A DNA stretch of 43,811 nt from a virus. Below, piece after piece: positions 1 through 40,527 of the stretch; position 1 is the stretch's first letter; each line of letters begins with the position of its first letter. A program made the translations under genes and the position numbers. Under the pieces are notes generated by a model that was not told the origin of the DNA, ran no database searches, and was given only the letters and a program-made list of their open reading frames with translations. Location: positions 1 through 43,811 of IMG/VR virus record IMGVR_UViG_3300020215_000880, one strand, 5' to 3'.

Positions 1-297
1 CGCTCCTTTGTGGTCTGCCCCTTTGAGGTTCGCCCCTTCGAGGTTCGCCCCTTTGAGGTTCGCCCCTTCGAGGTCCGCCCCTTTGAGGTCCGCCCCTTCG
101 AGGTTCGCCACTTCGAGGTTCGCCCCTTCGAGGTCCGCCCCTTTGAGGTTCGCCCCTTCGAGGTTCGCCCCTTTGAGGTTCGCCCCATAGAGGTTCGCCG
201 CACTTTTAACAGCAGCTTCTAGGCAGAGCTTTAGAGAATCCGTTTCAAGACTAAAGAGAACCGAACCAGACCATCGCGATTTGATTTCGAACTTCAT
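1..297 (-). CDS. Pentapeptide-repeat protein (partial, runs off left edge)
   Basis: Reading the minus strand from an ATG at 297 gives 99 codons without a stop. The first ~34 residues ([12 protein letters not shown]...) are non-repetitive and the rest is about 13 tandem A(N/D)LxG units, the pentapeptide-repeat signature that folds as a right-handed quadrilateral beta-helix. Repeat units alternate K and E at the fourth position and the DNA is a 15-bp tandem repeat. Such proteins can mimic DNA (Qnr/MfpA type) or act as scaffolds, but the family does not fix a function here. No strong ribosome site is seen before the ATG. If the window ends join, the frame continues directly into the replication protein starting at 43811. 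Confidence 0.85.
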
Positions 298-874: not shown

Positions 875-1900
875 TCACACTAAAATTTCTGTCCCGTCCC
901 TTTCCAAGACCTCTTGCGCCTCAATTAAGTGCACGATTTTCCGGGGCGTGTAAACCGGCAGCATCCGGTCGTCGGAATGGCCCAGGCTTTCCACCACCGT
1001 CTGAGACGGCACATTGTTATCCAATAATAAGGTGGCGGAGGACGGTCTTAGATGCTTCAGCTTAACGTGGGGCAGATTGGCAACCGCCGCGACCGTGGTA
1101 AACCGTCTTTGGACCACGCGGGCCCAGGATTCGGCCGAGAGATTCCCATCCACAAAAAGAGGTGTTCCGCTGGGCACGACCTCCATTCGCCGTCTTAAGA
1201 TTCGGTTAAGGTTTCGAATCGCGATTACGTAGGGTTTTCCCGAAGGGTTCCGGCGAGTGACGGTCTTATGTTGGATGCCGGTCAATACCCCACGTGCGAG
1301 ATCCACGTTTTTGTCCGTAATACGCCACAAATCACAAGGCCTTAATCGCGTCAAATAAAGCGCCTCTATGATTTCCGCCACCAAGAGGTCATTCAGCGAA
1401 ATAGCGGCACCGATGAGACGGTACACGACTTTCTTTGGCCACACAGTCTTATTGGCGAATGGGAGCTCGTTGACCTTCGGGACCAAAGATCCCGGATTCC
1501 GGGGCGGCAGCGGCACCTTCCGAAAGTCGATCCCGTGAACCACCCCCACCTCGCGACATTGGTAAAGCCAGTTAAACATCCGTGTCACCATCCCATGTGG
1601 GGTATTAATGGAGTTGGGTTTAAGGCCGCCCTGAGAATATAGACCTGGCACTGCAAAATCGCGGCGCATTTTTTCGATATCGAACTTCGAAACTTCATCG
1701 CAGTAGCGATCCTTGAAAAACCTTTTGATTCGCTCTCTATGCTTGCCGCACGTTCGAGCTTTGGGCCTGTCTTTCCAGTCATGCTCCCACCAAAGATCCA
1801 CCGTATCAGGGACCAGCAACCGAACCGTAAATGGTCCGGAGGCGAAAAGCTCCAACTGGACAGCATGGCTGCTGTCCTGTTCTGGCCGATCCAATTGCAT
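875..1900 (-). CDS. int: Tyrosine integrase
   Basis: This 341-aa tyrosine recombinase would catalyse site-specific integration and excision, probably at a tRNA-Gly gene given the adjacent att core. Catalytic residues fall in the expected order: R187 (in LTRLRPCDL), K212, the K-x-x-R box at 282-285 (KHLR, Lys in place of the more common His), H308 (LGHSDD) and the nucleophile Y317 (VYT). An SAM-like core-binding domain precedes them at about 35-130. The start is uncertain because no clear Shine-Dalgarno sequence precedes the ATG at 1900. It lies at the end of the leftward recombination operon, 188 bp after the SSB-like gene. That gap holds only a small CCCTTC/GAAGGG hairpin. Confidence 0.92.
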   Translation of the reverse strand: MQLDRPEQDSSHAVQLELFASGPFTVRLLVPDTVDLWWEHDWKDRPKARTCGKHRERIKRFFKDRYCDEVSKFDIEKMRRDFAVPGLYSQGGLKPNSINTPHGMVTRMFNWLYQCREVGVVHGIDFRKVPLPPRNPGSLVPKVNELPFANKTVWPKKVVYRLIGAAISLNDLLVAEIIEALYLTRLRPCDLWRITDKNVDLARGVLTGIQHKTVTRRNPSGKPYVIAIRNLNRILRRRMEVVPSGTPLFVDGNLSAESWARVVQRRFTTVAAVANLPHVKLKHLRPSSATLLLDNNVPSQTVVESLGHSDDRMLPVYTPRKIVHLIEAQEVLERDGTEILV

Positions 1901-2550: not shown

Positions 2551-3432
2551 TTATTTTCCAGCCGCAGCCGGCGTTAGTTTCTTCTCGATGAACGAAATGC
2601 ACTTACCGATGGTCTCCGATGTCATCTCGCTCCAATCATCCACGTCGGCCTTGGATAGCCATGAGTCAACGTCAGATTGATTGATCTTCACCACTTCGAG
2701 GAGATGCTTAACTCGGGCCACCTGTTCCGGGCTCGCCATGACGATTGGCGTTGACTCGCTTTCGATCTTTTCCCGACCATAGATTTCTGCAAACTTTTTA
2801 AAGTCGAGCGGGAAACGATCATCTTGAGGAAGCGAGGCAATCCGACTTTTCTTGACGAGAAATGTCCGGTTACGGCCCTCCTTCTCAAGCTCAATCCAAA
2901 GATCGAGAATGTATTCCAGCTTGTCGTAACCGTCAAAGGTCGTTCCGGCATAGGATAACTCGGCTCCGCGGCGACGCTCCCACTTATCTTTGGTGTGGCA
3001 TATCAGCAAGACGTTCATCTTAATGGTGTCGATCCATCGCATGAGTTGTCGGGTCGGGCGGTTCGCTTCTTTCTTGTCCTTGCCGAAATCGCTTCCCACC
3101 TTCTCTTCAGCCAAGGCCGCAGCTCTCAAATAGAGGGCGCTGAAGCTGTCCAGAATGAGCGTCTTGAAGTCGTGCTTCGTAGTCGCCAAGGTGGTCAGCT
3201 CGTTGATGACAGCGCCGAAATCTTGGCTTCCCTGTTCTTTTCCGAAGTAGACCCCTCCCGATGCGGCGAGTTTCTTTCGGTACTCTGGTCGAATTGCACC
3301 GCCTTCCGAGTCGATGTAATACGGAGTGGGCCAATCTAAGGCAAAAAACGTCTTGCCTACACCTGACTTTCCGCTTAACAGCATTTTAGCGTGTCCCTCT
3401 GCTATGACTTCCGGCTTGACTGCTTTTAACAT
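2551..3432 (-). CDS. RecA-like phage ATPase (Sak4/AAA_24 family)
   Basis: A P-loop ATPase of 293 aa with Walker A GKSGVGKT at residues 21-28 and a Walker B-like LILD at 92-95. The family (phage nucleotide-binding, Sak4-like) consists of single-domain RecA-like recombinases that work with a cognate SSB, which is encoded immediately downstream. The start at 3432 is preferred over the upstream 3489 because GGAGG lies six bases before it. The reading frame overlaps the end of the HNH gene by 7 bp. It probably promotes annealing during replication or genome circularisation. Confidence 0.85.
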   Translation of the reverse strand: MLKAVKPEVIAEGHAKMLLSGKSGVGKTFFALDWPTPYYIDSEGGAIRPEYRKKLAASGGVYFGKEQGSQDFGAVINELTTLATTKHDFKTLILDSFSALYLRAAALAEEKVGSDFGKDKKEANRPTRQLMRWIDTIKMNVLLICHTKDKWERRRGAELSYAGTTFDGYDKLEYILDLWIELEKEGRNRTFLVKKSRIASLPQDDRFPLDFKKFAEIYGREKIESESTPIVMASPEQVARVKHLLEVVKINQSDVDSWLSKADVDDWSEMTSETIGKCISFIEKKLTPAAAGK

Positions 3433-3890
3433 ACTGCCTCCTGCGTGTTTTCGAGTACGCCTCTCGCTTTCTTTAAATTTGCCCACCAACGCTTCCGACC
3501 CTCCGAAATCTTGCGACGTGCTTCTGGCGATCTGTTGTGTCGGTGCATATGTTCGGAGTGCGTAAAAATCTCTAAATTTTCAATTCGGTTATCTGTCTTT
3601 ATCTCGTTCTTGTGATGAATCTCTTCTTCTACTGAAATAAAACGACCCACATGTTTTTCCATCACTAGGATATGCTCAAAAACGTAATGTCCCTTTTTAG
3701 TTGCTCTCGGGTGTCCAACACAGCGAACTTGCTTGTATCCGCCTGCCGTGATTCTCCAACCGCCCTTCCACGCCGGATTTCTTTCGCCCGAATTGATTCC
3801 TTTCCTTGGCGTTCCTGTATGCCTCTTCGGCTTTCCATCTAACCGTCTCAAATCTTTAGTCTCCGCAGGTTTATAGAGTCTGCGCTCCAC
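3426..3890 (-). CDS. HNH endonuclease
   Basis: A 154-aa HNH nuclease with a GTG start at 3890. The core is at about residues 68-115: an H-x-x-x-x-EH segment, the paired His of EEIHHKNEIKTDN and the downstream N-R-I-x-N-L-E-I-F motif followed by H-x-H, the usual HNH_3 homing-endonuclease layout. The basic C-terminus (SEGRKRWW...) is a typical NUMOD-like DNA-binding tail. It sits as a free-standing gene between the zinc microprotein and the recombination ATPase, which suggests a selfish insertion or a packaging/recombination accessory role. Confidence 0.85.
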   Translation of the reverse strand: MERRLYKPAETKDLRRLDGKPKRHTGTPRKGINSGERNPAWKGGWRITAGGYKQVRCVGHPRATKKGHYVFEHILVMEKHVGRFISVEEEIHHKNEIKTDNRIENLEIFTHSEHMHRHNRSPEARRKISEGRKRWWANLKKARGVLENTQEAVC

Positions 3891-3953
3891 TTGTATTAAA
3901 ATTGCCCCAGCCCTCTGGCCGCCAGTAAGACTCCCCTCTCAGGATTCTCCCCT

Positions 3954-4094
3954 TCAAGCCGCGGCCTGTATTTTCTCTCGAAGCTGGGTAAATTGAATGT
4001 CGGGGATCACCCGCAAGCACGTCACGTGCTTCGGCATGTCCTCGGCCGGAAATGTAATTTCGCACTCCTCGCAGTAAAAATCAGTTTTGGTCAT
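3954..4094 (-). CDS. Zinc-finger microprotein (46 aa)
   Basis: A 46-aa frame starting at an ATG that overlaps the stop of the upstream gene as ATGA. It contains CEEC at residues 8-11 and H23/C26 (HVTC), a C2HC zinc-finger arrangement, and ends REKIQAAA. The tight coupling and the cysteine pattern support a real gene. It may be a DNA-binding or regulatory peptide of the recombination operon. Confidence 0.7.
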   Translation of the reverse strand: MTKTDFYCEECEITFPAEDMPKHVTCLRVIPDIQFTQLREKIQAAA

Positions 4095-4285
4095 GGGTTC
4101 TTTTTTGGCTTCCTTTTCTCGCGAATACTAACAGCGCAGTTTGTCGCAGCCACAAATGCGTCGAAGGCGTCAATAAGATACCGGACTGCCTTTTGCTCTT
4201 GCCCCTCAATGACCCTAATCTTCGCCTCCTTAAGGAGTTGCCGGGTCAATGTCATTCCAGTAATGTACTCGCTCAGACGGTTCAT
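4091..4285 (-). CDS. Hypothetical helical protein (64 aa)
   Basis: Starts at MNRLSEYITG, with GGAGGAG seven bases upstream and an ATGA overlap with the preceding gene; an upstream start at 4312 is less likely. The sequence is predicted mostly helical with a basic tail (REKRKPKKNP). No family is recognised. It is the second gene of the leftward recombination operon. Confidence 0.65.
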   Translation of the reverse strand: MNRLSEYITGMTLTRQLLKEAKIRVIEGQEQKAVRYLIDAFDAFVAATNCAVSIREKRKPKKNP

Positions 4286-4485
4286 GACTTTTTCTCCTCC
4301 GCAACGACCCATTTCCCTGCCGATTTCCGCGCGATCACCCGCGCCGCCCCCAAAATCACCTCATCGTCCGCGCCCTGCTCCCCAGCTAAACGGAGCATCT
4401 GGTACGCCATCATGTTCTCGAAATCGTTAATGTTCGCCCGGCGCTCGATGGCTCCGTCTAACAGCTCTCGAATTTCCTGGGTCAT
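4282..4485 (-). CDS. Hypothetical protein, first gene of the leftward operon
   Basis: A 67-aa acidic helical protein (MTQEIRELLDG...) with a strong ribosome site (GGGAGG) before its ATG. It is the first gene after the consensus promoter at 4530-4557, so it is expected to be expressed early or on derepression, in a position where other temperate phages often carry Cro- or excisionase-like proteins. No HTH is obvious and no function is assigned. Confidence 0.6.
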   Translation of the reverse strand: MTQEIRELLDGAIERRANINDFENMMAYQMLRLAGEQGADDEVILGAARVIARKSAGKWVVAEEKKS

Positions 4486-4519
4486 GATGGCCTCCCTTGA
4501 AATAGGTATCCTTAAGTGC

Positions 4520-4545
4520 TACTCTACGAGTATACTAATTGTATA
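4520..4545. promoter_or_regulatory. Two operator-like palindromes
   Basis: TACTC-TAC-GAGTA (4520-4532) and TATAC-TAATT-GTATA (4531-4545) are perfect 5-bp inverted repeats lying end to end. They cover the -10 region of the leftward promoter and lie just upstream of the divergent HTH regulator gene, as expected of operators for that regulator. Confidence 0.5.
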
Positions 4546-4557
4546 GTTACGTGTCAA
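4530..4557 (-). promoter_or_regulatory. Consensus sigma70 promoter, leftward recombination/lysogeny operon
   Basis: On the minus strand TTGACA (RC of 4552-4557) is separated by 16-17 bp from TATACT (RC of 4530-4535). This near-consensus promoter reads into the 4485 gene and on toward integrase. It overlaps the palindromes at 4520-4545, so repression is likely. Confidence 0.75.
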
Positions 4558-4580
4558 GTGGCGGTTTGAGGGGAAGAAAT

Positions 4581-4886
4581 ATGCAAAGTAAAACTATGGT
4601 ATATTCACGCGGCGTTTTTGATACAAAGAAAGGGGATCAAAATTTGCTCTCAATGGCTCAAACTGCCAAGGCTTGGGGGATTACTCGTGTCACGCTTTAT
4701 CAATGGATATATCTCGGGGTTATTGTCCCCCAAGGACACCAAAAGATAGGCAACCGGAACTTTTATTGGTTCTCGCCTGAATATGTAGATAGAGTCAAAA
4801 GCATCATCCCAAAAGAGAGAGGCTCGGGGACGCCGATTTTGACCGATGATGTGATTGTGAAACTAAAAAAGCTGAAACCTAACTAA
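4581..4886 (+). CDS. Helix-turn-helix regulator (MerR/excisionase-like)
   Basis: A 101-aa plus-strand protein, start chosen at 4581 because GAGGGGA lies just upstream; an in-frame TTG at 4539 is less likely. Residues 23-50 (LSMAQTAKAWGITRVTLYQWIYLGVI) read as a MerR/AlpA-type winged helix-turn-helix, followed by an aromatic wing (NFYWF). It is divergent from the leftward operon with operator-like palindromes between them. That makes it the best candidate for the lysogeny repressor or a directionality factor. Its stop overlaps the end of the convergent 4883-5140 gene by 4 bp. Confidence 0.65.
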   Translation: MQSKTMVYSRGVFDTKKGDQNLLSMAQTAKAWGITRVTLYQWIYLGVIVPQGHQKIGNRNFYWFSPEYVDRVKSIIPKERGSGTPILTDDVIVKLKKLKPN

Positions 4887-5140
4887 GCCGCTTTCTTCAC
4901 AAACCGATGCGACGCCCAGTTCCAAAGGGCTCCAAAAGCTCCTACAAAGGCCACAATCAGGCCAGCCTCTATCTGTGCTTGACTCACGTCCATGGCTTCA
5001 AAAATAGGCGCAGAATAGGCTGCGAGCTTTGGCCCGAACAAAAGTCCAACGATTGCACCCGCCGCATGCTTAGCGAACTTCTGAATCACCTTCCGTACAA
5101 TCACGCCTTCGAACAACGACTGCTTTAGTTTCTCGAACAT
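4883..5140 (-). CDS. Small membrane protein, holin candidate
   Basis: An 85-aa protein with an amphipathic, basic N-terminus and two hydrophobic segments at about residues 26-47 and 58-77, ending in a basic tail (HRFVKKAA). The size, topology and location at the far end of the cluster that contains the lysin suggest a holin, but no family is firmly recognised. The ribosome site AAAGGAGGT precedes the ATG, and a GTGGG/CCCAC hairpin lies immediately upstream of it (about 5160-5175). Confidence 0.6.
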   Translation of the reverse strand: MFEKLKQSLFEGVIVRKVIQKFAKHAAGAIVGLLFGPKLAAYSAPIFEAMDVSQAQIEAGLIVAFVGAFGALWNWASHRFVKKAA

Positions 5141-5199: not shown

Positions 5200-5484
5200 T
5201 TACGGCTTTTTGATGCCCAGCTCTTTAAAGCGCTTCTGAGCAAATTCGAAATACTGACTCTCATTCCAGGCCTCTCGCTCCACCACGAAATAGATCTTTT
5301 GCCAATCGCCATGAATAATAACCATGGCCGGATGTAGGCCGCTGCTGGCAGGCGGGATTAACTCTAGGTCAATGCCAGCTATTCCCAGGGTGTTCGTTCG
5401 AATAATGAGCCATGCGTCCTTCGGCAGATTGGCCATAAGCCCGAAGTCATTCCGCCTCCGGCCAAGGGCTATCCATTTGGGCAT
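5200..5484 (-). CDS. Hypothetical protein (94 aa)
   Basis: A soluble 94-aa protein (MPKWIALGRRR...) overlapping the 3' end of the cyclase-like gene by 16 bp, so probably co-translated with it. A beta-rich middle (AWLIIRTNTLGIAGIDLELI) is followed by a helical end (FAQKRFKELGIKKP). No family recognised. Its coupling makes it a candidate partner of the cyclase homologue. Confidence 0.6.
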   Translation of the reverse strand: MPKWIALGRRRNDFGLMANLPKDAWLIIRTNTLGIAGIDLELIPPASSGLHPAMVIIHGDWQKIYFVVEREAWNESQYFEFAQKRFKELGIKKP

Positions 5485-6107
5485 GGCGCGTCCCCATTGG
5501 CGTACTTGAAGGCATAAAGCTCTTTCATGTCCTCATCATCCAGGCCGCGCGGCGTCGGGCCTTTAATAAGGAGCCGCTCGAACTGCAAACTCTTCACATC
5601 GGGCTTCAAGAGCTGCCGGACCGCCTCCGTGCAAATGCAGCCCACCCCACGCTCAACTTCTAAAATCCGATCCCCCAAAGACGGGCTGAATCCTACATAC
5701 TCGACTTTCCAGCGCCGGTCGGCTTTGCGGATGGGCGGAACCCATATTTTTGAGACCATCCCGCAGGCCACCCGAACCCGAAATCCTTCGGGCCGCGGGT
5801 GCCGCATTTTCACAATCAGGGCTTCCAATCGCTGCTGAAGCTCGTACGAGGTTTTGAGGACGCAAAGCGCCCCGCCGCAATTGTGCCCCCGAACCATTTC
5901 CTTGAAAGCGACAAAACCGTCGCACAAATACTTGACGTGGTATCCGGTCGCGTACTCATAACGGCGAAATTCGTTGTACATCTGCCGGATATAGGCGCTT
6001 TTGTCCTCATGACTGGTCGCACCACGTTTGGCCCACGTCGTAAAACCGGTCGTGTCCCCGTAGATCACGAAAACGCGGACTCTTTCCTCTCTGCATTGTC
6101 GGTTCAT
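5469..6107 (-). CDS. Class III nucleotide cyclase homology-domain protein
   Basis: This 212-aa protein has the layout of a class III adenylate/guanylate cyclase catalytic domain. The first metal Asp is D18 in VFVIYGDTTGFT; K59-D63 in KYLCDGFVAF aligns with the K-x-x-GD second-metal motif (Cys where Gly is usual); VRVACGMV (111-118) matches the RIGIHTG strand; VGFSPSLGDRI (138-148) matches G-x-x-V-N-x-A-x-R, with R147 kept but Asn replaced by Ser; the end LLIKG...ELYAF matches the family C-terminus. Both metal ligands are present, so activity is possible, but the missing Asn could mean altered or lost catalysis. It lies among lysis and membrane genes with no fused sensor domain. The nucleotide used cannot be told from sequence. 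Confidence 0.72.
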   Translation of the reverse strand: MNRQCREERVRVFVIYGDTTGFTTWAKRGATSHEDKSAYIRQMYNEFRRYEYATGYHVKYLCDGFVAFKEMVRGHNCGGALCVLKTSYELQQRLEALIVKMRHPRPEGFRVRVACGMVSKIWVPPIRKADRRWKVEYVGFSPSLGDRILEVERGVGCICTEAVRQLLKPDVKSLQFERLLIKGPTPRGLDDEDMKELYAFKYANGDAPCPNG

Positions 6108-6111
6108 TCAT

Positions 6112-6606
6112 TTATCTTCGGACGTCACGTTTGACGCTGTATTCCGTTGGCAGTGCCTGTATTTTCTCTCGAACTTGGCTAATCCACACCCACGTTGTGG
6201 CAAAGAGGCCGATCACCGGAACCATCGCCGCGGCGAAGACCTTAAAGAAGAAGCTGCGGATATTGCGCTGAAACTCTTTCCAGTCTGTGATCGGCGCTGC
6301 GTAGTGTTCATCCATGACGGCAACACGTGTTCCCAGTTCTCCAAACTTTTTAATCATTTCGGTTTCCAAGCGAAGGATGGCTTTCTCAAGCTCGTCGTTC
6401 TGCGCCTTGACCTTTTGCATAGTCGGCGAAATGCCACCGTCGATTCGGCCTTTCATGTATTCAACGGATTGCTCGACCTTCGTAAAAGCAATCTGGGTTT
6501 GGTGAAACAAATCGGTCAGTGCCGAAATCCGCTTGTCATATAGGTCCGTCGTCGAACGGACCATCCCGGCAATATCAAACGGATGGAGGCGTTCTTCGTC
6601 GCTCAT
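6112..6606 (-). CDS. Coiled-coil protein with C-terminal membrane helix
   Basis: The start is placed at MSDEERLHPF because GGAGG precedes it and the ATG overlaps the lysin stop as ATGA. The 164-aa product has a long helical/coiled-coil region (about 20-95) and one hydrophobic helix at about 120-144 (FFFKVFAAAMVPVIGLFATTW), then a short basic tail. Coupling to the lysin suggests a lysis accessory role (holin or spanin-like), but no spanin lipobox or signal is present. It could alternatively be a membrane-anchored partner of the downstream cyclase homologue. Confidence 0.65.
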   Translation of the reverse strand: MSDEERLHPFDIAGMVRSTTDLYDKRISALTDLFHQTQIAFTKVEQSVEYMKGRIDGGISPTMQKVKAQNDELEKAILRLETEMIKKFGELGTRVAVMDEHYAAPITDWKEFQRNIRSFFFKVFAAAMVPVIGLFATTWVWISQVREKIQALPTEYSVKRDVRR

Positions 6607-7049
6607 GCGTCCTCCACGATCCTTAATCTTCCCCACCACGCGAAGTGGGACGAGGCCATGTACGAATCAATCGGTGTTTGGACAACACCCCATTTAAGGC
6701 CCTTGGCTTCGATAACTTGGCTGCCGCCGACGAACGTCCCCACATGGTGAATCACGCCGGTCTCGGGGTTGTGCTTAAATCCCAAATCACCCAGTAAAAG
6801 CTTGCCTGGAAAATCGGCCCAATGTCCTGGTATCTTTCGGCACACCTTTGCCTGGTTGTACGATCCGTCGGGAATGGAAATCCCGATCTTATGGAAGGCC
6901 ACCTGAAAGAGTTCCGAGCAGTCCCACGCCTTGTATTTGGCCCAGTCTTTCTCGTTTGGGTCGTTCTCCACGCCGAAGACGTAAGGCTTCCCCACCTGTT
7001 GTTTGAGGAAGTCGATAAACTGGGGCCAGTTTATTTCTGAGTGCTTCAT
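6603..7049 (-). CDS. NlpC/P60 family peptidase, probable endolysin
   Basis: A 148-aa single-domain NlpC/P60 cysteine peptidase: C44 in AWDCSELFQ, H101/H102 in VIHHVGTFVGG and the trailing VIEAKG motif form the expected Cys-His active site. Such enzymes cleave the peptide stems of peptidoglycan. There is no signal peptide or cell-wall binding domain, so release would need a holin. Start ATG overlaps the upstream stop (ATGA). It lies in a lysis-like cluster with a coiled-coil membrane protein downstream. A virion-associated role near the tail cannot be excluded. Confidence 0.85.
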   Translation of the reverse strand: MKHSEINWPQFIDFLKQQVGKPYVFGVENDPNEKDWAKYKAWDCSELFQVAFHKIGISIPDGSYNQAKVCRKIPGHWADFPGKLLLGDLGFKHNPETGVIHHVGTFVGGSQVIEAKGLKWGVVQTPIDSYMASSHFAWWGRLRIVEDA

Positions 7050-10621: not shown

Positions 10622-10650
10622 TTGACACAGTGGTGCACTGGTGGTACACT
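10622..10650 (+). promoter_or_regulatory. Promoter and operator of the toxin-antitoxin operon
   Basis: TTGACA (10622-10627), a 17-bp spacer and TACACT (10645-10650) give a near-consensus sigma70 promoter. CAGTG-GTG-CACTG (10628-10640) is a perfect inverted repeat in the spacer, and GTGGTGCAC / GTGGTACAC form a direct repeat. Both are as expected for autoregulation by a ribbon-helix-helix antitoxin. Confidence 0.75.
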
Positions 10651-10673
10651 ACTTTCAAAAAGGAGATAAATCG

Positions 10674-10925
10674 ATGCCCACATCATTGCCTCGCGTTCAA
10701 GTTGCATTCGACAAGGGAACGTATGAGATCCTCGAAAAGATCTCCTCTGTTGAGAAAGACTCTTTATCCCATATCGTGGCTCGTCTTGTGAAATATGCCA
10801 TAGAAATGTCCGAAGATTTAACTCTCGGCGAAATCGCCAATAAAAGACTCAAGACGTTCTTGCGAGATGATGCGTTGACATCCGAGGATCTTTTAAAGTG
10901 GAACAAAAACCGAAGAAAGGCATAA
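10674..10925 (+). CDS. Ribbon-helix-helix type antitoxin
   Basis: An 83-aa protein, start at 10674 chosen because AAGGAG lies eight bases upstream. The N-terminal PRVQVAFDKGTYEILEKIS fits the beta strand and first helix of a ribbon-helix-helix DNA-binding fold; the C-terminal part (about 50-83) would wrap the toxin. It overlaps the toxin gene by 28 bp and has its own promoter with an inverted repeat, the standard type II toxin-antitoxin layout. Being on the strand opposite to the late genes marks it as an accessory insertion. Confidence 0.78.
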   Translation: MPTSLPRVQVAFDKGTYEILEKISSVEKDSLSHIVARLVKYAIEMSEDLTLGEIANKRLKTFLRDDALTSEDLLKWNKNRRKA

Positions 10926-11257
10926 CTTTTAAAGTTCTTTGGCACTCGGAAATTGTCGACGACTTCCGCGATATACCGCAAAATATCGTTGAAAATATCA
11001 TTGAAGCGTCGACTTACCGCCTTTCTCAGGCCCCCCAATTGGTTGGTGCCCCACTTAAGGGAACCACTAACCTCGTCTGGAAGATGCGATTTTCTGCTTA
11101 CCGTATTCTCTTTACGATGAACCAAAAGTCCGAAGAAGTCTGGGTGTTGTCTGTTAAACACAGAAGTGTCGTTTATAACCAGCAAAACATAATGAGCGTG
11201 TTGCAAATGGCTATAGCGATTCACCAAAGCGGCGGTAGCATTAAACCGCTCGAATAG
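10898..11257 (+). CDS. RelE/ParE-superfamily toxin
   Basis: A 119-aa product with a GTG start inside the antitoxin gene. The core matches the RelE fold: TFKVLWHSEIVDDFRDIP, then LSQAPQLVGAPLKGTTNLVWKMRFSAYRILF and a final VWVLSVKHRSVVY, with the conserved KMR-x-x-x-YRI and HR-x-x-VY elements. Members either cleave mRNA on the ribosome or poison gyrase. In a temperate phage it may stabilise the prophage or exclude competing phages. Confidence 0.82.
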   Translation: MEQKPKKGITFKVLWHSEIVDDFRDIPQNIVENIIEASTYRLSQAPQLVGAPLKGTTNLVWKMRFSAYRILFTMNQKSEEVWVLSVKHRSVVYNQQNIMSVLQMAIAIHQSGGSIKPLE

Positions 11258-22125: not shown

Positions 22126-23016
22126 TTACGCGCCCTGGCTGCCGAAGAACCCTCTCCAATCGGAGAAGCCGCGGCTCCATCGCGCCGTTCCTTTGAACTT
22201 CGCGTCTTCGGTATCGAAGTCGCCATCCTGCTCAAAGTCCGGCATCCGGCGGTTGAACCAGTTGAGCTGGTGTCCGTCGCATTGAATGAACCAGGCGTCC
22301 GTGTCGGTCAGATAGTGGTTCACCATCACTTCCACAATACCTCTCACCGCATTGATGTCGTTCTGAGCGGAACCGGGGAGCAGTTCTGACTTGAGGACAC
22401 GAACCGCGTTGAACTGGTCGCTCGGATGAACGATTACTTTCCGGGCCAAGAGGTTGATTGGAAGGCTCCGATCATCAACCGTGGCCGCAATGTCGATCAA
22501 CGCTTGCTCAAGGCTGGTATCTGAGAAGTCCGCAGCCGTTGTCAGTTCGTTCTGCTCGGTGCCGCCACCGGTGAGCGGATGATCCGTCGCACAAAGCTCT
22601 TTGCCGTCTCCGCCGGTGTAGCTGCTGTTGAAGGCTCGGTTTAAGACGTTTGCCGCATCCTGTTCTTGCGAGATGCGCATCGAACGACCCAAGGCCGCTG
22701 GCATCTTCCGCATGATGTTGTACAGGTCGTCTTCCCACATTTCGCGCGTCACGCGGAAACCCAGACCAAAGGTTCGGTGTGTGTACCGAACGTTGAAACC
22801 CTGGATCGGGTCGTCGTAGGTGATCCCAGACCCTTCGTCTTTCTCAGGAACCACACCGAATCCCGACACGCCGGAATCGTCCTCGTACTGACGGGTGGAT
22901 TCCAAAATGTTGAAAATCCGGGTGTACTCAAGCGGATACTGATTGAAGTTGTTGAAGAAGATTTCTCGAAAGCCAGGGGCTAGTAAGTCCCCGAAGCTGG
23001 ATCGAATGGCTGTCAT
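22126..23016 (-). CDS. Major capsid protein
   Basis: 296 aa, strong AGGAGG before the ATG. Sequence features such as MWEDDLYNIMRKMPAALGRSM, the DHPLTGGGTEQN segment and a C-terminal WFNRRMPDFEQDGD region resemble the Mu gpT/HK97-fold capsid type. It lies downstream of scaffold and decoration genes and is followed by a terminator, typical of the most abundant virion protein. No protease gene is obvious, so maturation may be cleavage-free. Confidence 0.85.
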   Translation of the reverse strand: MTAIRSSFGDLLAPGFREIFFNNFNQYPLEYTRIFNILESTRQYEDDSGVSGFGVVPEKDEGSGITYDDPIQGFNVRYTHRTFGLGFRVTREMWEDDLYNIMRKMPAALGRSMRISQEQDAANVLNRAFNSSYTGGDGKELCATDHPLTGGGTEQNELTTAADFSDTSLEQALIDIAATVDDRSLPINLLARKVIVHPSDQFNAVRVLKSELLPGSAQNDINAVRGIVEVMVNHYLTDTDAWFIQCDGHQLNWFNRRMPDFEQDGDFDTEDAKFKGTARWSRGFSDWRGFFGSQGA

Positions 23017-23755: not shown

Positions 23756-25036
23756 CTAAGAGTTAATTCCGACCGCTACATAATCGCGGTTGTTCTTCCG
23801 CACCTCGTAGGAGGTGAAATGCGCTTTCATCAAAGCGTCCATATCAGCGTCCGAATACCCCCGGACGTGTTCAAAATGGCCTTGGATCTCTTCGCGCCAC
23901 GGCGTTGCAATCACAACTTTTCCGCCTGGCTTGCACAGAGATTTCATCAGGGAAATCAGTTTGGCATCGTCGCGCAGGTGCTCGATGGTATGGGCGGAAA
24001 CCACTACATCAAACGTTTGACTGTCGCCGTTTACGGCATAGGTCCGGATGTCCGCAACCTTTCCATCGAAGCCTTGGGTCTTGAGAATTTCAACGGCCTT
24101 TGCCGAAAAATCGTAGCCGGTCCCCTCGATACTTTTGGCCTCCCGCAGTTTCTTAAGGAGAACGCCAGGCCCAGATCCGATATCCGCAACTTTGGCCTTT
24201 TCTGGAATCTCGGCCGCAATATCCCGCAAGGTTTCGGGATAGTGTCCCTCTCGGGAAGCGTTTTTAAGGAATTCCTCACTCCAAATCGTGTCCCAGTAGT
24301 CTTTTTCAAGGGTTTGGTTCTGAGCGATGCCCGTCATGTGCTGAAGTAAGCCGCATTCATGAGCCGCTTTCGCAAAGAGATGATCGAAGTAGTAAAAGCC
24401 ACCGTGGGCGGAAATAATCCGTGTGTCCACGTAGGTTTTAAACCCTTTGTCTTTTGCTCTTAAACAAAAATTGATGTCGTGCCCTTCGCTCCGCACACCA
24501 CGACCCTTCTCCCAGATATCCTCAAAAGGCGGCCATTCAATCGCTTCAATAACGCTTTTGTGGATCAAGAGGCAACCGGATCCAACCCAATCCACTTCAA
24601 CAATTGGATTTGACGGGTCCTTGGCGTTCAGTTCGGAGAACTCCGACTTCCAAGGACGGCCGTGCACATTCACGCCCAAGACTTTCCCATTAAAGTCTTT
24701 AGCCCACCCCGCAACAGGGGCCCATGGGGCGACTTTGGTTTGGTAAAGGCCGCTCACGATTTTGGCCCCGTATTTTTCAACGGTTTCGGCCATTAGCGGA
24801 ATGGTCATCGGGGGGAACTGCTGGTCAACGTCCATCAGAAACAGCCATTCGGCACCTAGATTGAGAGCCTTGTAGATGCCGTCATTGTAGCTGGACGCTT
24901 TAACGGAAGTGTCGCCGGGTACCATGAAAGAGTCGGCGGGCTTCATCATCCGCAAATAAGACCACAGGAAATAACGCGGTTCCATGCAGTGATTATTAAC
25001 GTTGACGAAGCCCAGCCGACCCTTAAGCATGTTCAT
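23756..25036 (-). CDS. Glycosyltransferase-methyltransferase fusion
   Basis: 426 aa with two domains. Residues 1-230 are a GT-A glycosyltransferase: D69-V-D71 (LFLMDVDQQF) as the metal/sugar-nucleotide motif, VDWVGSGCLLIHK at 148-160 and EGHDINFC at 184-191 as the acceptor/catalytic region. Residues 245-426 are a class I SAM-dependent methyltransferase: VADIGSGPG (283-291) as the AdoMet loop, GTGYDFSAKAVEIL and FDVVVSAHTIEHL. It is translationally coupled to the upstream head gene (TAATG). Context suggests modification of a virion or host glycan. Target unknown. Confidence 0.85.
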   Translation of the reverse strand: MNMLKGRLGFVNVNNHCMEPRYFLWSYLRMMKPADSFMVPGDTSVKASSYNDGIYKALNLGAEWLFLMDVDQQFPPMTIPLMAETVEKYGAKIVSGLYQTKVAPWAPVAGWAKDFNGKVLGVNVHGRPWKSEFSELNAKDPSNPIVEVDWVGSGCLLIHKSVIEAIEWPPFEDIWEKGRGVRSEGHDINFCLRAKDKGFKTYVDTRIISAHGGFYYFDHLFAKAAHECGLLQHMTGIAQNQTLEKDYWDTIWSEEFLKNASREGHYPETLRDIAAEIPEKAKVADIGSGPGVLLKKLREAKSIEGTGYDFSAKAVEILKTQGFDGKVADIRTYAVNGDSQTFDVVVSAHTIEHLRDDAKLISLMKSLCKPGGKVVIATPWREEIQGHFEHVRGYSDADMDALMKAHFTSYEVRKNNRDYVAVGINS

Positions 25037-27601: not shown

Positions 27602-27846
27602 GCGTTTTCCTCCCTTTTGTTTTCATCAATGATCTTGTCCACCAAAGTCATCATCTCTTCCATGGCGTAGGCGTACCCCTCCGCAAAATTCGCTTCAGTT
27701 AATTTGCCTTCTCGGACATAGGCCCGTTCCAAAGACACGTGGTACTGCTTAAGACCGACGATCTCGTCCCAAAAAGGACGGCCTTTTGGGTCGTTCCGCC
27801 ATTCCCGCAAATCTTCTGCGGAAAACTCGCGCTCAGATTTCTTCAT
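27598..27846 (-). CDS. Hypothetical protein (82 aa)
   Basis: A charged helical protein (MKKSEREFSAEDLREWRND...) overlapping the portal gene end by 14 bp and the co-chaperonin start by ATGA. No family recognised; probably a head-morphogenesis accessory. Confidence 0.6.
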   Translation of the reverse strand: MKKSEREFSAEDLREWRNDPKGRPFWDEIVGLKQYHVSLERAYVREGKLTEANFAEGYAYAMEEMMTLVDKIIDENKREENA

Positions 27847-29863
27847 CCATGCCTCCGTTCATGCTTGGGGCAGGTTCTGGCATCGTAGGTTCGACCTCGC
27901 CTTCTTGCGGCGGTTTCGCCTTGCCCACATTGTCTAGGTAGTCTTTGACGCCTTGCGTTCCTAGACTGGACCGCGTTTTCTCTTCCAACATCCAAAGTGC
28001 CCGTGTTTTCTCTTTGTGTTTTTTGAGAATCTCTTTGTATTCGGGCGCCATCTCTTTGTAGGCGTCGGTCTTCTCAAACGCATCGTGAATCGCCAAATGG
28101 AGCTCGTGGTTTTCGCCAGGCTGCGGATCGTGCGTGAGCCCTTGCATGAACATGGCGTTTTCGGCGTCTGGTGACATGGGTGGCTCTGGGAGTTTCGGTA
28201 AGTAACGGTTCACTTTCTTGTGGTCGTAAGACTCAATGAAGTCCTTCGTCGCTTCCCAGAGGGCCTGTGGGTTTTGCACTTGGACGCCTTGCGGGACCAC
28301 GCCTGTGAGCGGGTTTTGAAGCATGAAAGCAACCAGTTCCTGGGCCTCTTGGCGCCGCTGCAACCGGCTGGCATACGTCGGATCGCCCACCGGAATCACA
28401 TGCTTCACACCGTCCATGTCGGACCGATTGATCGCCTTAAACGCGATGTTCTCATCCCCCTCCATCACAACGTATTGCTTGGATTCCGGGAGAAAGAGCT
28501 GGTTGTTTAAGAAGATCAGGCGCAGTTCTTTCTCTAAAGATCGGAAGAGGCGCTTGGTCATGACGCCAAACTGAATCATGCCCTGCTCGATCACGGCCAA
28601 GGTTCCACCGGTGACGGGTGACCGCATCCCTTTCGGGAATCGGCCCATCATGAAGTCGGACACGCTCGTAAACTGCTCGACGTACTGCTGAATGAAGCCC
28701 AAAACTTGGAAGAGGGATTGATCCAGACGCTGCATGTTCGGAAAGAACACTTGGCTCGCGTCCTCGACCTCTTCCATGTGCCCGGGGGACAGTTTGATTT
28801 CGCGACGCTTGAGTCCAGCCCGACGGCCATAAAAGCCGAACGGCTGGTTAGAAAGCCGTCCGGCGTCAAAGATTTGGTTGAAGGCCGTGTTCGCCATCTC
28901 GTTTAAGACTTCCAAGAAATGGCCGAATCCGAAGGAATAGAAGCCTTCCGGGTTGGGAATGAAGTGGTAATCGACGAAGTAATCAAGGTCTTGGCTCTTG
29001 CCGCTGGCTTGGATTTGAGCTTTAACCGCTCGAAGGAGCGTATGACTCGGGTGGTCAACGGTGAGGACGTAGGGCGTGTAGTCTTTGTCCAGAGACGTTT
29101 TATAGAGAAGGTGCTGCTCCAACATCAGAAGCGGCTTTTCACCCGATGCTGACGACGCCGATTCCGTTTCATCTCGCGTCTCTTGAATCGGCATGGACGA
29201 CACAGACGCCGAATCACGCTTCACCTTGGCAAAGTCCACGTAAAAACCGTTTGTCGCCTTTCTTTCGAGCTCATCGTAGTGTCGGAAAAGGCGGTGCGTT
29301 TTCCGGCGGGCGGATTTCATGTTCCGAGTCCGGTACGGGAGCACCAAATCGACGCCCGAGACGTATTCGGAGACGGGCCGCTGGTTTTTTGAGTCGTACC
29401 AGACCTTTTTAAAGTTGGTCCCACCGATAGCGGTGTTCAAAATGAGCTTATCCGTCTCCTCCTCAAACTCCTCCATGTCGTATTTGATCTGCCAATTGGT
29501 GAAGTCTTCCGCTCGCTTCGCCCGATCAACGTCATTCAGTCCGACAGGGATCACTTTGGCGAATTGAGGTGGGGCAAAGAACGCTTGGTAGGCCCGACCA
29601 TGGAACTGATTGCACGCCACGGCCAAAAGAGGCAGACACACGTTGGAGGCGTCTGGCCAGGGCGTCGTTTTCTTGTCGCGGTGGCACATCCAGAGCTTGT
29701 AGTAGCGGTTTCGCTTCTCTTCCCACGGCATCCGATCTTTTACGTCTTGGTTGTAGGTCTCAACGACCATATTCCCAATCTTTTCCCGTTCTTCTTTCTT
29801 TAAGAGTTTCGCGACGTTCTTAAGGCCCGGATCTTCGGGCGACTTGAGTAATTTTTCTGGCAT
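27833..29863 (-). CDS. Portal protein
   Basis: 676 aa, P22-like portal in length and pattern: an N-terminal wing (TYNQDVKDRMPWEEKRNRYYKLWMC), TPWPDASNVCLP, the crown/stem region (FGFGHFLEVLNEMANTAFNQIFDAGRLSNQPFG) and LRLIFLNNQLFLPES. Forms the dodecameric DNA channel. AAGGAG precedes the ATG; follows the large terminase by 10 bp. The Asp/Glu-rich C-terminus overlaps the next gene. Confidence 0.85.
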   Translation of the reverse strand: MPEKLLKSPEDPGLKNVAKLLKKEEREKIGNMVVETYNQDVKDRMPWEEKRNRYYKLWMCHRDKKTTPWPDASNVCLPLLAVACNQFHGRAYQAFFAPPQFAKVIPVGLNDVDRAKRAEDFTNWQIKYDMEEFEEETDKLILNTAIGGTNFKKVWYDSKNQRPVSEYVSGVDLVLPYRTRNMKSARRKTHRLFRHYDELERKATNGFYVDFAKVKRDSASVSSMPIQETRDETESASSASGEKPLLMLEQHLLYKTSLDKDYTPYVLTVDHPSHTLLRAVKAQIQASGKSQDLDYFVDYHFIPNPEGFYSFGFGHFLEVLNEMANTAFNQIFDAGRLSNQPFGFYGRRAGLKRREIKLSPGHMEEVEDASQVFFPNMQRLDQSLFQVLGFIQQYVEQFTSVSDFMMGRFPKGMRSPVTGGTLAVIEQGMIQFGVMTKRLFRSLEKELRLIFLNNQLFLPESKQYVVMEGDENIAFKAINRSDMDGVKHVIPVGDPTYASRLQRRQEAQELVAFMLQNPLTGVVPQGVQVQNPQALWEATKDFIESYDHKKVNRYLPKLPEPPMSPDAENAMFMQGLTHDPQPGENHELHLAIHDAFEKTDAYKEMAPEYKEILKKHKEKTRALWMLEEKTRSSLGTQGVKDYLDNVGKAKPPQEGEVEPTMPEPAPSMNGGMDEEI

Positions 29864-29873
29864 AAAATCTCCT

Positions 29874-31466
29874 TTAGTAGCCGGTAACCGAACTGCGTCC
29901 TGCTGTTAAGGGCGCTCGTTCGGGTTCTTCGCTGTCAACCATGTCGCAGTAAGGCTCATCGAGGAGAATTCGGTGAATCCCCTCGATAAAGTGGTCGTCT
30001 TTCTTGATGGGAACTTGTTTTACGTCGTGCTTCTGCTGCGTCTTCAAAGGGAACTCGTCCCATTGGTAGTGCAGAATCTGGTGGATCACGCCTTGCATAT
30101 CATCGAAGACAAAAATGTTCGGGAACCGGCCCGCTTCTAAGTCGTAATCCAAGTGGTTCTGCATGAGCAGGATGCCGGCGTCTCGGTTTTTCGATCCGGC
30201 GTTGCATCTGAATCCGTAATCGGCAAAAAGATCCCACATGCCCTTTCCGTCGTCCCGGCCCGGGTCTTGGATCTTGGCGATAGGGTCAATGAGACGCACG
30301 ATTTCATCGCCACGCCGTCCCAAAATTTCGGTTTCGTAGATCTTCATCGATTCACAGAAGGGTTCGACGCGGTTTAACGGGTCGCCATTCTTCAACTCAC
30401 CGCACACAAACTTGCGTTGATTGGGTGCGACGGCGATCCAGACAGCGTGATGCGGCGTCCGCGGATGGGTGTCGATGTGCATCCAGAGGCCCCAATGCTT
30501 GGGGATCTTGCCACCGTAGGGTTGGAGTACGCGGGCCCGGCTTTTGAGATGGATATCCTTCTGAAATTTCTTGTAGACCAACCCGACCAAATGGAAGAAC
30601 CGGCCATGGAGGCGGGCTTCCTTCTCATCGTCCGTGAGGTTCGCTGCAAACTCATCGACCGCTTGCTGTGTAAGCCCGAAGTTCACGTTGTCCGAGATAT
30701 CGAAGTAGTGAAGGCCCACGTCTTTGCGGCTATAAAGCTCGTCGTAGATCCACGCCTCTTTTAAGGGGGTCATGGTCATCCAGGCTTTGCCACGTCGATC
30801 CATAAGGCCGCGCTGCTGAGCGACCCAGATGGGCCTAGGCGGAGGCTCGTCGTCGTGGATCCAGTCGTAATCGGCGGATTCAAAGAGATCCAAGTCTTGG
30901 TCGTAAGACTGAAGGAAGATTTGGGAACCGTTCTTAAGCTGAATCGTCGTAATGACGCCCTGTGGATTTCGTTTGACCGCTTGAAGTTCCGGCGTTGGCA
31001 GGGCGCCCGGAATGCCGGCTTCGTGATTTCCCAGAAGTTTTGGGATGATCACTTTCCGCACCTGCTCTTGGAACGACTCGCCGCAGATCAGGCCCTTGTT
31101 TGGAATCCGAATGTCCACTCTGTAGTTTGGGTCGTCTTTCGGAAGCCACGGACGGTAACCCAGTGCGAATGCAACGTCTTCGTTGATACCGCTCGTTGAT
31201 TTGCCGGAACGGTTTGCTCCGCTCACAATCCGGATCTGGGATTTATCCGCATGAAAACCTTGCTGCTTGATGTGCGGACCTCGGATCGAGCCGTCGGGCA
31301 GGAACTGGTAATAACAGATCGACCAATTCTTTCGCCGCCACGCTTTCTGCGCTTCGAGCTCCTTGATTTCCTTCTCAAGTTGCTTGACGCGTTCGAGGCG
31401 CGCGATATCGGCTTCGAGTTGCTTGGTCTTATCTATTTGTGTCGCTATGTCCGTTTCGTTCGCCAT
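29874..31466 (-). CDS. terL: Terminase large subunit
   Basis: 530 aa packaging motor. A coiled coil at 10-42 precedes the ATPase: Walker A GANRSGKST (83-91) and Walker B IHDDE (203-207). The RNase H-like nuclease has acidic residues D332 (MHIDTHP), D394 (RLIDPIA) and D490/D491 (IKKDDHFIEG). It is separated from the small-terminase gene by about 3.3 kb, unlike the usual adjacent arrangement. The start has only a weak ribosome site. Confidence 0.92.
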   Translation of the reverse strand: MANETDIATQIDKTKQLEADIARLERVKQLEKEIKELEAQKAWRRKNWSICYYQFLPDGSIRGPHIKQQGFHADKSQIRIVSGANRSGKSTSGINEDVAFALGYRPWLPKDDPNYRVDIRIPNKGLICGESFQEQVRKVIIPKLLGNHEAGIPGALPTPELQAVKRNPQGVITTIQLKNGSQIFLQSYDQDLDLFESADYDWIHDDEPPPRPIWVAQQRGLMDRRGKAWMTMTPLKEAWIYDELYSRKDVGLHYFDISDNVNFGLTQQAVDEFAANLTDDEKEARLHGRFFHLVGLVYKKFQKDIHLKSRARVLQPYGGKIPKHWGLWMHIDTHPRTPHHAVWIAVAPNQRKFVCGELKNGDPLNRVEPFCESMKIYETEILGRRGDEIVRLIDPIAKIQDPGRDDGKGMWDLFADYGFRCNAGSKNRDAGILLMQNHLDYDLEAGRFPNIFVFDDMQGVIHQILHYQWDEFPLKTQQKHDVKQVPIKKDDHFIEGIHRILLDEPYCDMVDSEEPERAPLTAGRSSVTGY

Positions 31467-39593: not shown

Positions 39594-39989
39594 TTAAGCC
39601 CTGCATGCCTCACCGTGATGGTGGCATCCACGCTTGCAATTTTCTTCAGGAACGCCTCTTTCTTTGCAATTGCATTCTGCCTTCTCCCCCTTCCCTAGAT
39701 CCCCTTGCGGGCCTGCGTGAAGCAGCTGAGAGGCATGTTCCATGCACAAGAAAGCGCTTCCACCACAACCGCAAATTACTGGATATCCTTCCTCTGATAA
39801 AACAAAACCGAATTGATTCCTTCGCAATAGTTCCTGGTTCTGTTCGTCCTGTCTTACAACCACTTTATAGTCACCAAGGATGAGGAGCATAAATCGGGTG
39901 AACATTGACTGCCTGGGAAGCCAGGGTTGCAGCCTGCTCTCAAGTTCCGCCCTATATTTTGAATGGTCTACCCAGCTAAACTTGCTCAT
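39594..39989 (-). CDS. Cys/His-rich hypothetical protein (131 aa)
   Basis: 131 aa. The first half has a hydrophobic stretch (MFTRFMLLILGDYKVVV); the second is zinc-like (VICGCGGSAFLC, CNCKERG...CKRGCHHHGEAC). It overlaps the RyR-domain gene by 14 bp. No family recognised. Confidence 0.55.
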   Translation of the reverse strand: MSKFSWVDHSKYRAELESRLQPWLPRQSMFTRFMLLILGDYKVVVRQDEQNQELLRRNQFGFVLSEEGYPVICGCGGSAFLCMEHASQLLHAGPQGDLGKGEKAECNCKERGVPEENCKRGCHHHGEACRA

Positions 39990-40527
39990 GTTTCACATCA
40001 GACTTATGGAGGAGCTGAGAGGCGGAGGAAATTGTTCGACAGTAATCACACTGTGCATGATAAATTGACGGGGGTTCGCCGTGGTAATACTTGGCAAAAG
40101 ATACGAGTTCTTCAATCACCTTCCGCTGCTCGGCGAGTCCGTTTGAATAGCTCTCGATGACGTTCTTAGCGTTCGCGTATTTCTGACGTTCTTGATCTAA
40201 GTTTTCCTCCAACTCTTCAATCTTCGCCTTCTGCTCGGCGAGGAGCTTCCAATAAGGCGCAACCTCTTTTCGATCCGATTCTTTCTCTCGCTCACTTAAT
40301 TGCTCGTATGGCGTCTCGGCTTGACGGTTCCATCGTGCGATGTTTTCCGACGTCCAATTCGCTACGGCGTGCTTGTGCCAGCGCGACCACCTTTCGTGTT
40401 CGAGGGCGGCCAACTCTTCCATAAGATTATCCGTCACTGGTGGAATACAGTCATGCGAATTGAGCCTTTCTCTGTCGCCAAAAGGCTTATCACACATCGC
40501 GCAAATCAGAGGTGTTCTGTCCGTCAT
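39976..40527 (-). CDS. RyR-domain-like protein with C2H2 finger
   Basis: 183 aa. N-terminal CAMCDKPFGDRERLNSHDC is a C2H2-like finger. Residues 36-95 (EELAALEHERWSRWHKHAV...PYEQLSEREKESDR) match the RyR motif found in many phage proteins, whose role in phages is unknown. Then a coiled coil (AKIEELEENLDQERQKYANAK) and a last Cys pair (CDYC). Confidence 0.7.
   Translation of the reverse strand: MTDRTPLICAMCDKPFGDRERLNSHDCIPPVTDNLMEELAALEHERWSRWHKHAVANWTSENIARWNRQAETPYEQLSEREKESDRKEVAPYWKLLAEQKAKIEELEENLDQERQKYANAKNVIESYSNGLAEQRKVIEELVSFAKYYHGEPPSIYHAQCDYCRTISSASQLLHKSDVKHEQV

Follow-up and report, generated by a model that had tools for sequence, protein, structure and literature searches.

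A very diverged, stand-alone class III nucleotide cyclase homology domain encoded among putative lysis genes of a phage

Class III cyclases in phages and related systems

Class III nucleotide cyclases are a known kind of phage protein. Canonical domains of this class are found in 10 of 50,697 INPHARED records, namely HTVC008M (twice), four Melnitz isolates, NatCom_28274, a faecal record, and two records of 'Acinetobacter phage MD-2021a', and in IMG/VR, the contigs of which can include host DNA, there are 354 confirmed stretches with such domains. At least four PHROG families contain class III domains, all of them labelled as of unknown function, and BFVD includes Caudovirales proteins with a 'guanylate cyclase domain'. 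There is a large and little-studied set of viral cyclases, and in the literature searched, which was chiefly open-access, no study of the function of a phage class III cyclase was found. The cyclases of HTVC008M (AGE60353), Melnitz (QZI95054) and NatCom_28274 (XTK83929) have 474-683 aa; that of HTVC008M has a CHASE2 sensor, and those of HTVC008M and Melnitz adjoin curli-related genes. Among the best 80 IMG/VR loci (L003-L082), 45 have complete frames, all of 556-706 aa; with only these top-scoring loci kept, the length comparison favours near-canonical cyclases. These complete frames match PHROG 35576-type proteins of unknown function. One BFVD entry has only 287 aa, which means that shorter forms exist.

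Like these cyclases, the protein described here is a phage-encoded class III domain, but it is a bare one of 212 aa among putative lysis genes, and as the complete IMG/VR frames are all much longer, what is unusual is that it stands alone. It departs from the other phage cyclases in architecture and genomic context, not in the presence of such a domain in a phage. The initial annotation had called these domains rarely seen in phage genomes, which is right only in part, given the 10 INPHARED records, the 354 IMG/VR stretches and the four PHROG families.

Three further groups are close enough for comparison. The PF00211 domains of Pseudomonas aeruginosa CyaB (3r5g), Arthrospira CyaC (1wc0) and Synechocystis Cya2 (2w01) are colinear with the 212-aa protein and share with it both metal Asp residues, the base-contact Lys, the Arg of the NxxxR motif, a Lys-Gly pair near the C-terminus, and the fold of the model, whereas the phage protein has Ser in place of the Asn, Cys in place of the Gly before D63, has lost the G-I-N-T-G segment, and lies below PF00211 detection. 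DUF2652 (PF10851) proteins are soluble and mostly single-domain as well, with the same D,D / K,E / R pattern; they have the Lys-Glu pair, lack the Asn, and are predicted to act on ATP or GTP (Ramakrishnan and colleagues, PMC4886424). The PycC cyclases of Pycsar systems have the class III fold and the metal Asp residues, and in clades B-E they carry only one cyclase domain (PMC11224242), but the 212-aa protein differs from them in its base-contact residues, and no PycTM or PycTIR neighbour was found.

The gene and its virus

The window, which is the whole stretch of DNA that was analysed, corresponds to a virus record with a length of 43,811 bases. It contains genes for a terminase, a portal, a capsid/head protein and an integrase (Table 1) and, judged from these surrounding genes, is a genuine phage; the integrase suggests that the phage is temperate. 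The cyclase-like ORF starts with an ATG at 6107 and ends with the stop at 5469. Its GC content of 0.559 and GC3 of 0.67 resemble the values of the head protein gene and further late genes, and there is thus no sign of a recent import.

The closest relatives found by their terminase are IMG/VR contigs (49-62% identity), and one of them, a 45 kb contig (G006), has a structural block that is colinear with the window; in the pieces of it that were read, nothing resembled the lysis region of the window. Twenty-four viral records that share a related terminase, many of them fragments, showed no relative of the cyclase. Among genome contigs, such a terminase turned up only on a short MAG contig from Gammaproteobacteria, and its 29% identity is too low to name the host. 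Between the head genes, a 426-aa ORF (23756-25036, minus strand) encodes a C-terminal methyltransferase domain (Pfam 1.5e-16) behind an N-terminal part with matches in PHROGs, and two related phages, L093 and L094, have kept this protein at 51-54%.

Table 1. Position of the cyclase-like gene, of its presumed active-site codons, and of other features of the window
Feature	Position	Strand	Basis
Stand-alone class III nucleotide cyclase homology domain, 212 aa	5469..6107	-	profile, genome search, alignment, model
D18, first metal Asp	codon 6054..6056	-	D in 101/101 other domains
K59, base-contact Lys position	codon 5931..5933	-	K in 98/101
D63, second metal Asp, in the turn joining strands 2 and 3	codon 5919..5921	-	invariant in the others
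E136, second base-contact position	codon 5700..5702	-	others S, T, D, G or V
S143, replaces transition-state Asn	codon 5679..5681	-	N in 100/101
R147, Arg of NxxxR motif	codon 5667..5669	-	R in 100/101
94-aa protein, no family	5200..5484	-	no match in Pfam, PHROGs, NCBIfam, PADLOC, INPHARED
85-aa ORF with membrane segment and strong ribosome site	4883..5140	-	hydropathy and start region; no family matched
175-aa ORF, long helical part followed by one membrane segment	6112..6639	-	hydropathy
NlpC/P60 hydrolase	6603..7049	-	Pfam PF00877 2.3e-10; phage matches
Terminase large subunit	29874-31466		
Portal	27833-29863		
Head protein	22126-23016		
Integrase	875-1900		

Homology to class III cyclases

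The 212-aa protein is below detection by all libraries. It has no match in Pfam, NCBIfam, PADLOC (at E up to 10) or among PDB sequences (phmmer), and in PHROGs there is one chance match only (0.16). The search with PF00211, which the initial annotation had proposed, came back empty as well, the curated cut-off of that model not being reached. Close relatives were not found in INPHARED or PLSDB (tblastn, E up to 1), nor in IMG/VR by peptide or DNA patterns, and 587 candidate stretches from GTDB contigs included none that was confirmed. Standard annotation misses such proteins entirely.

With all curated models silent, class III homology was tested directly. A first profile, built mostly from near-identical IMG/VR cyclases, gave the protein a weak score of 8.5 bits, which was nevertheless above 2,000 shuffles, and was later replaced by a diverse profile of 21 cyclases from which the protein itself had been left out. 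This profile matches residues 12-184 with 19.6 bits (E 1.5e-5) and ranks the protein first among all ORFs of the window, the next ORF having an E of 1.5, while the best of 10,000 shuffles reaches 10.8 bits. MAFFT aligns it end-to-end with three solved cyclases at 19-23% identity, with both metal Asp residues, the GFT, the Arg and the Lys-Gly in the same register. The third line of evidence is a search with the 212-aa protein alone against 398 Pseudomonadota genomes, in which the targets were not hand-picked. The top four matches are all PF00211 proteins (E 2.0e-4 to 8.2e-4 per genome), which score 77-119 bits to PF00211 and are aligned across the same motifs. Matches five and six, a carbon-nitrogen hydrolase and a G6PD with E-values of 0.005-0.009, are unrelated enzymes, so that noise begins there and trust ends near 1e-3.

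It could be argued that the protein has nothing to do with cyclases and that the motifs resemble theirs by chance, given that no family library or PDB sequence matches and that the identity to cyclases is only 14-24%. A colinear, full-length profile match far above the shuffles and an unbiased genome search with nothing but cyclases in the first four places make this scarcely credible. The 212-aa ORF is confirmed as a very diverged, stand-alone class III nucleotide cyclase homology domain, as had been proposed.

Structure model and active-site residues

AlphaFold with the sequence alone gave an uninformative model (pLDDT 33.9), and a model guided by an alignment of 19 IMG/VR cyclases reached a pLDDT of 63.5 and a pTM of 0.62. 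The latter matches CyaB (3r5g) with a Foldseek E of 5.9e-8 and a TM of 0.68 by query, as well as with a VIA Z of 16.3 across 193 residues at 3.7 A, and it also matches CyaC and Cya2. As canonical cyclases guided the model, this match is partly circular; it is consistent with a class III fold and is no independent proof. In the model, D18 lies where strand 1 ends, D63 is part of the turn that joins strands 2 and 3, and the helix of residues 141-151 carries R147; these are the positions expected for the family. The two refuting outcomes named with the initial annotation, a different fold or Asp residues outside the active site, are thus not seen, but only provisionally, as cyclases guided the modelling. 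PycC chains are not among the structural matches listed for the model, which carries no weight either way.

The residues were compared with 101 other cyclase domains, which come mostly from IMG/VR and are closely related among themselves. The two metal Asp residues of class III cyclases correspond to D18 and D63 in the alignment, and S143 aligns with the transition-state Asn while the Arg of the motif is kept as R147; both observations had been made correctly from the sequence. K182-G183 is also kept and is invariant among the 101 domains. Other positions have changed: C62, just before D63, is Gly in 101/101 and Y16 is Phe in 100/101 of the other domains, and the G-I-N-T-G and V-G-N-x-G segments (strand 4-5 motifs) have decayed. 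Because of these two decayed segments and a pLDDT under 50 for residues 123-140, the reading of E136 is the least secure. The only other Ser at the Asn position among the 101 domains is that of a phage Melnitz cyclase (L085, Melnitz-3; 2732-4783; VSTAAR), so that this cyclase and the 212-aa protein have the same residue there in the alignment. It looks as if the metal and NTP site is maintained and the transition-state Asn has been lost.

Membership in DUF2652 was considered for the identical residue pattern and was rejected, as the PF10851 profile does not match up to an E of 10 and five members of the family, compared across the domain, show no similarity in sequence.

Neighbouring genes and the question of Pycsar

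The cyclase gene is co-directional and tightly packed with the NlpC/P60 gene, the product of which is probably the endolysin. Four nucleotides separate the stop of the 175-aa ORF from the cyclase start, and at the other end the start of the 94-aa ORF overlaps the cyclase gene by 16 nt (5469-5484); for the 94-aa protein, which the initial annotation describes as coupled to the cyclase, no family matches. Small ORFs with one predicted membrane segment each lie on both sides of the cyclase gene, and the 85-aa ORF is a possible holin, although none of the small membrane ORFs near the cyclase matches a holin family. The claim that the cyclase lies beside lysis genes accordingly has partial support, from the hydrolase and from the membrane segments of the small ORFs, and none from a holin family match.

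The neighbouring ORFs have no cyclic-nucleotide-binding or TIR domain (Pfam), which bears on two explanations that involve Pycsar. In the first, which the initial annotation had named among others, the protein would act in counter-defence and block Pycsar, either as a decoy that imitates PycC or as a sponge for cyclic pyrimidines, an idea that can draw on the class III fold common to the Pycsar cyclases (PMC11224242). However, PADLOC gives no match, though this protein escapes every library, and K59 is of the purine type, unlike EaPycC, in which an Arg (R142) is located four residues before the metal D146, an offset equivalent to that of K59, with base-contact residues varying among PycC clades (PMC11224242). 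Moreover, the known anti-Pycsar proteins are nucleases (PMC9117128), and a late-gene position is ill-suited to an early counter-defence gene. With partner domains missing as well, the decoy is highly improbable, and the proposed block of Pycsar finds no support. In the second explanation, the prophage would carry a Pycsar-like defence cyclase that protects the lysogen against other phages, with one of the small membrane proteins as effector. The integrase in the window and the membrane ORFs adjoining the cyclase gene would fit, but these neighbours resemble lysis genes, lack the expected domains, and the gene is located in a late operon, so that such a defence is very unlikely. From the initial interpretation, the assignment to the family and most of the residues, with a nearly complete site, have thus held up, while rarity was overstated.

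Possible function

It is plausible from the residues that the protein binds NTP and slowly cyclizes purine nucleotides. As a soluble single-domain protein it would, like other members of the family, form a head-to-tail homodimer, which, going by K59, D18, D63 and R147, may bind a purine NTP together with two metal ions that D18 and D63 coordinate, and may cyclize the purine nucleotide at a low rate, with ATP favoured by the Lys. Cyclization is likely retained because the metal Asp residues, the base-contact Lys and the Arg of NxxxR are all kept, and the best guess is that the activity is reduced and not abolished. By its position, the gene would be expressed late, alongside the lysis genes, and, more speculatively, the product might change cyclic-nucleotide signalling in the infected cell. 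There is about an even chance that this whole reading applies, i.e. that the protein is a soluble, homodimeric, NTP-binding, slow purine cyclase made late to alter host signalling. By analogy, a retained function would agree with the loss of the Asn being tolerated in known or predicted cyclases: the Asn is absent from some established cyclases, Rv1900c having a His at this position (PMC4886424), and the DUF2652 proteins and the Ser of the Melnitz cyclase may be further cases. What has to be counted against the slow cyclase is that the residue map comes from a single sequence for which no sister was found.

The main rival is a dead pseudo-cyclase that binds NTP, or that poisons a class III cyclase of the host as half-site partner and thereby lowers the cyclic-nucleotide output. 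Catalysis could have been lost with the exchange of the transition-state Asn for Ser, that of the invariant Gly for C62, and the decayed G-I-N-T-G and V-G-N-x-G segments. As two protomers are required to build a class III active site, a bare domain might also work in trans (PMC11224242). A dead protein would have no need, though, for both metal Asp residues, the Lys and the Arg, all of which are kept, and a pairing with a host cyclase is doubtful at 14-24% identity, which leaves the pseudo-cyclase as a tentative explanation that deserves to be taken seriously.

A further reading would be a minimal, single-domain cyclase that a temperate phage makes at the same time as its lysis proteins; a cyclic nucleotide that rises or collapses would then help to set the moment of lysis or, late in infection, to shut down a signalling or immune pathway of the host. 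A use of cyclic mononucleotides by phages for such ends is not, to our knowledge, described, and this reading is rather unlikely. If the protein is active, phages would write cyclic-nucleotide signals, beyond erasing them, and if it is inactive, it points to a phage pseudo-cyclase acting on host signalling. The bare 212-aa form is the simplest phage class III cyclase to express, assay and knock out.

Other features of the window

Several further features were noticed. At the very start of the record (1-222, plus strand), short head-to-tail repeats are seen in one translated frame. A free-standing HNH_3 endonuclease (PF13392, E 7.6e-13) is encoded at 3426-3890 on the minus strand and overlaps the start of an AAA_24 ORF at 2551-3489. 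On the opposite strand to the cyclase gene, two small overlapping ORFs (10641-10925 and 10898-11257, plus strand) look by eye like an antitoxin-toxin pair, composed of a 94-aa protein and a RelE-like protein of 119 aa. Finally, a 183-aa ORF at 39976-40527 (minus strand) has a weak match to the RyR domain (Pfam 2.5e-4, under the curated cut-off); RyR-like domains have been discussed as possible nucleotide sensors, which would make this ORF, weak as its match is, of interest beside a cyclase homologue.
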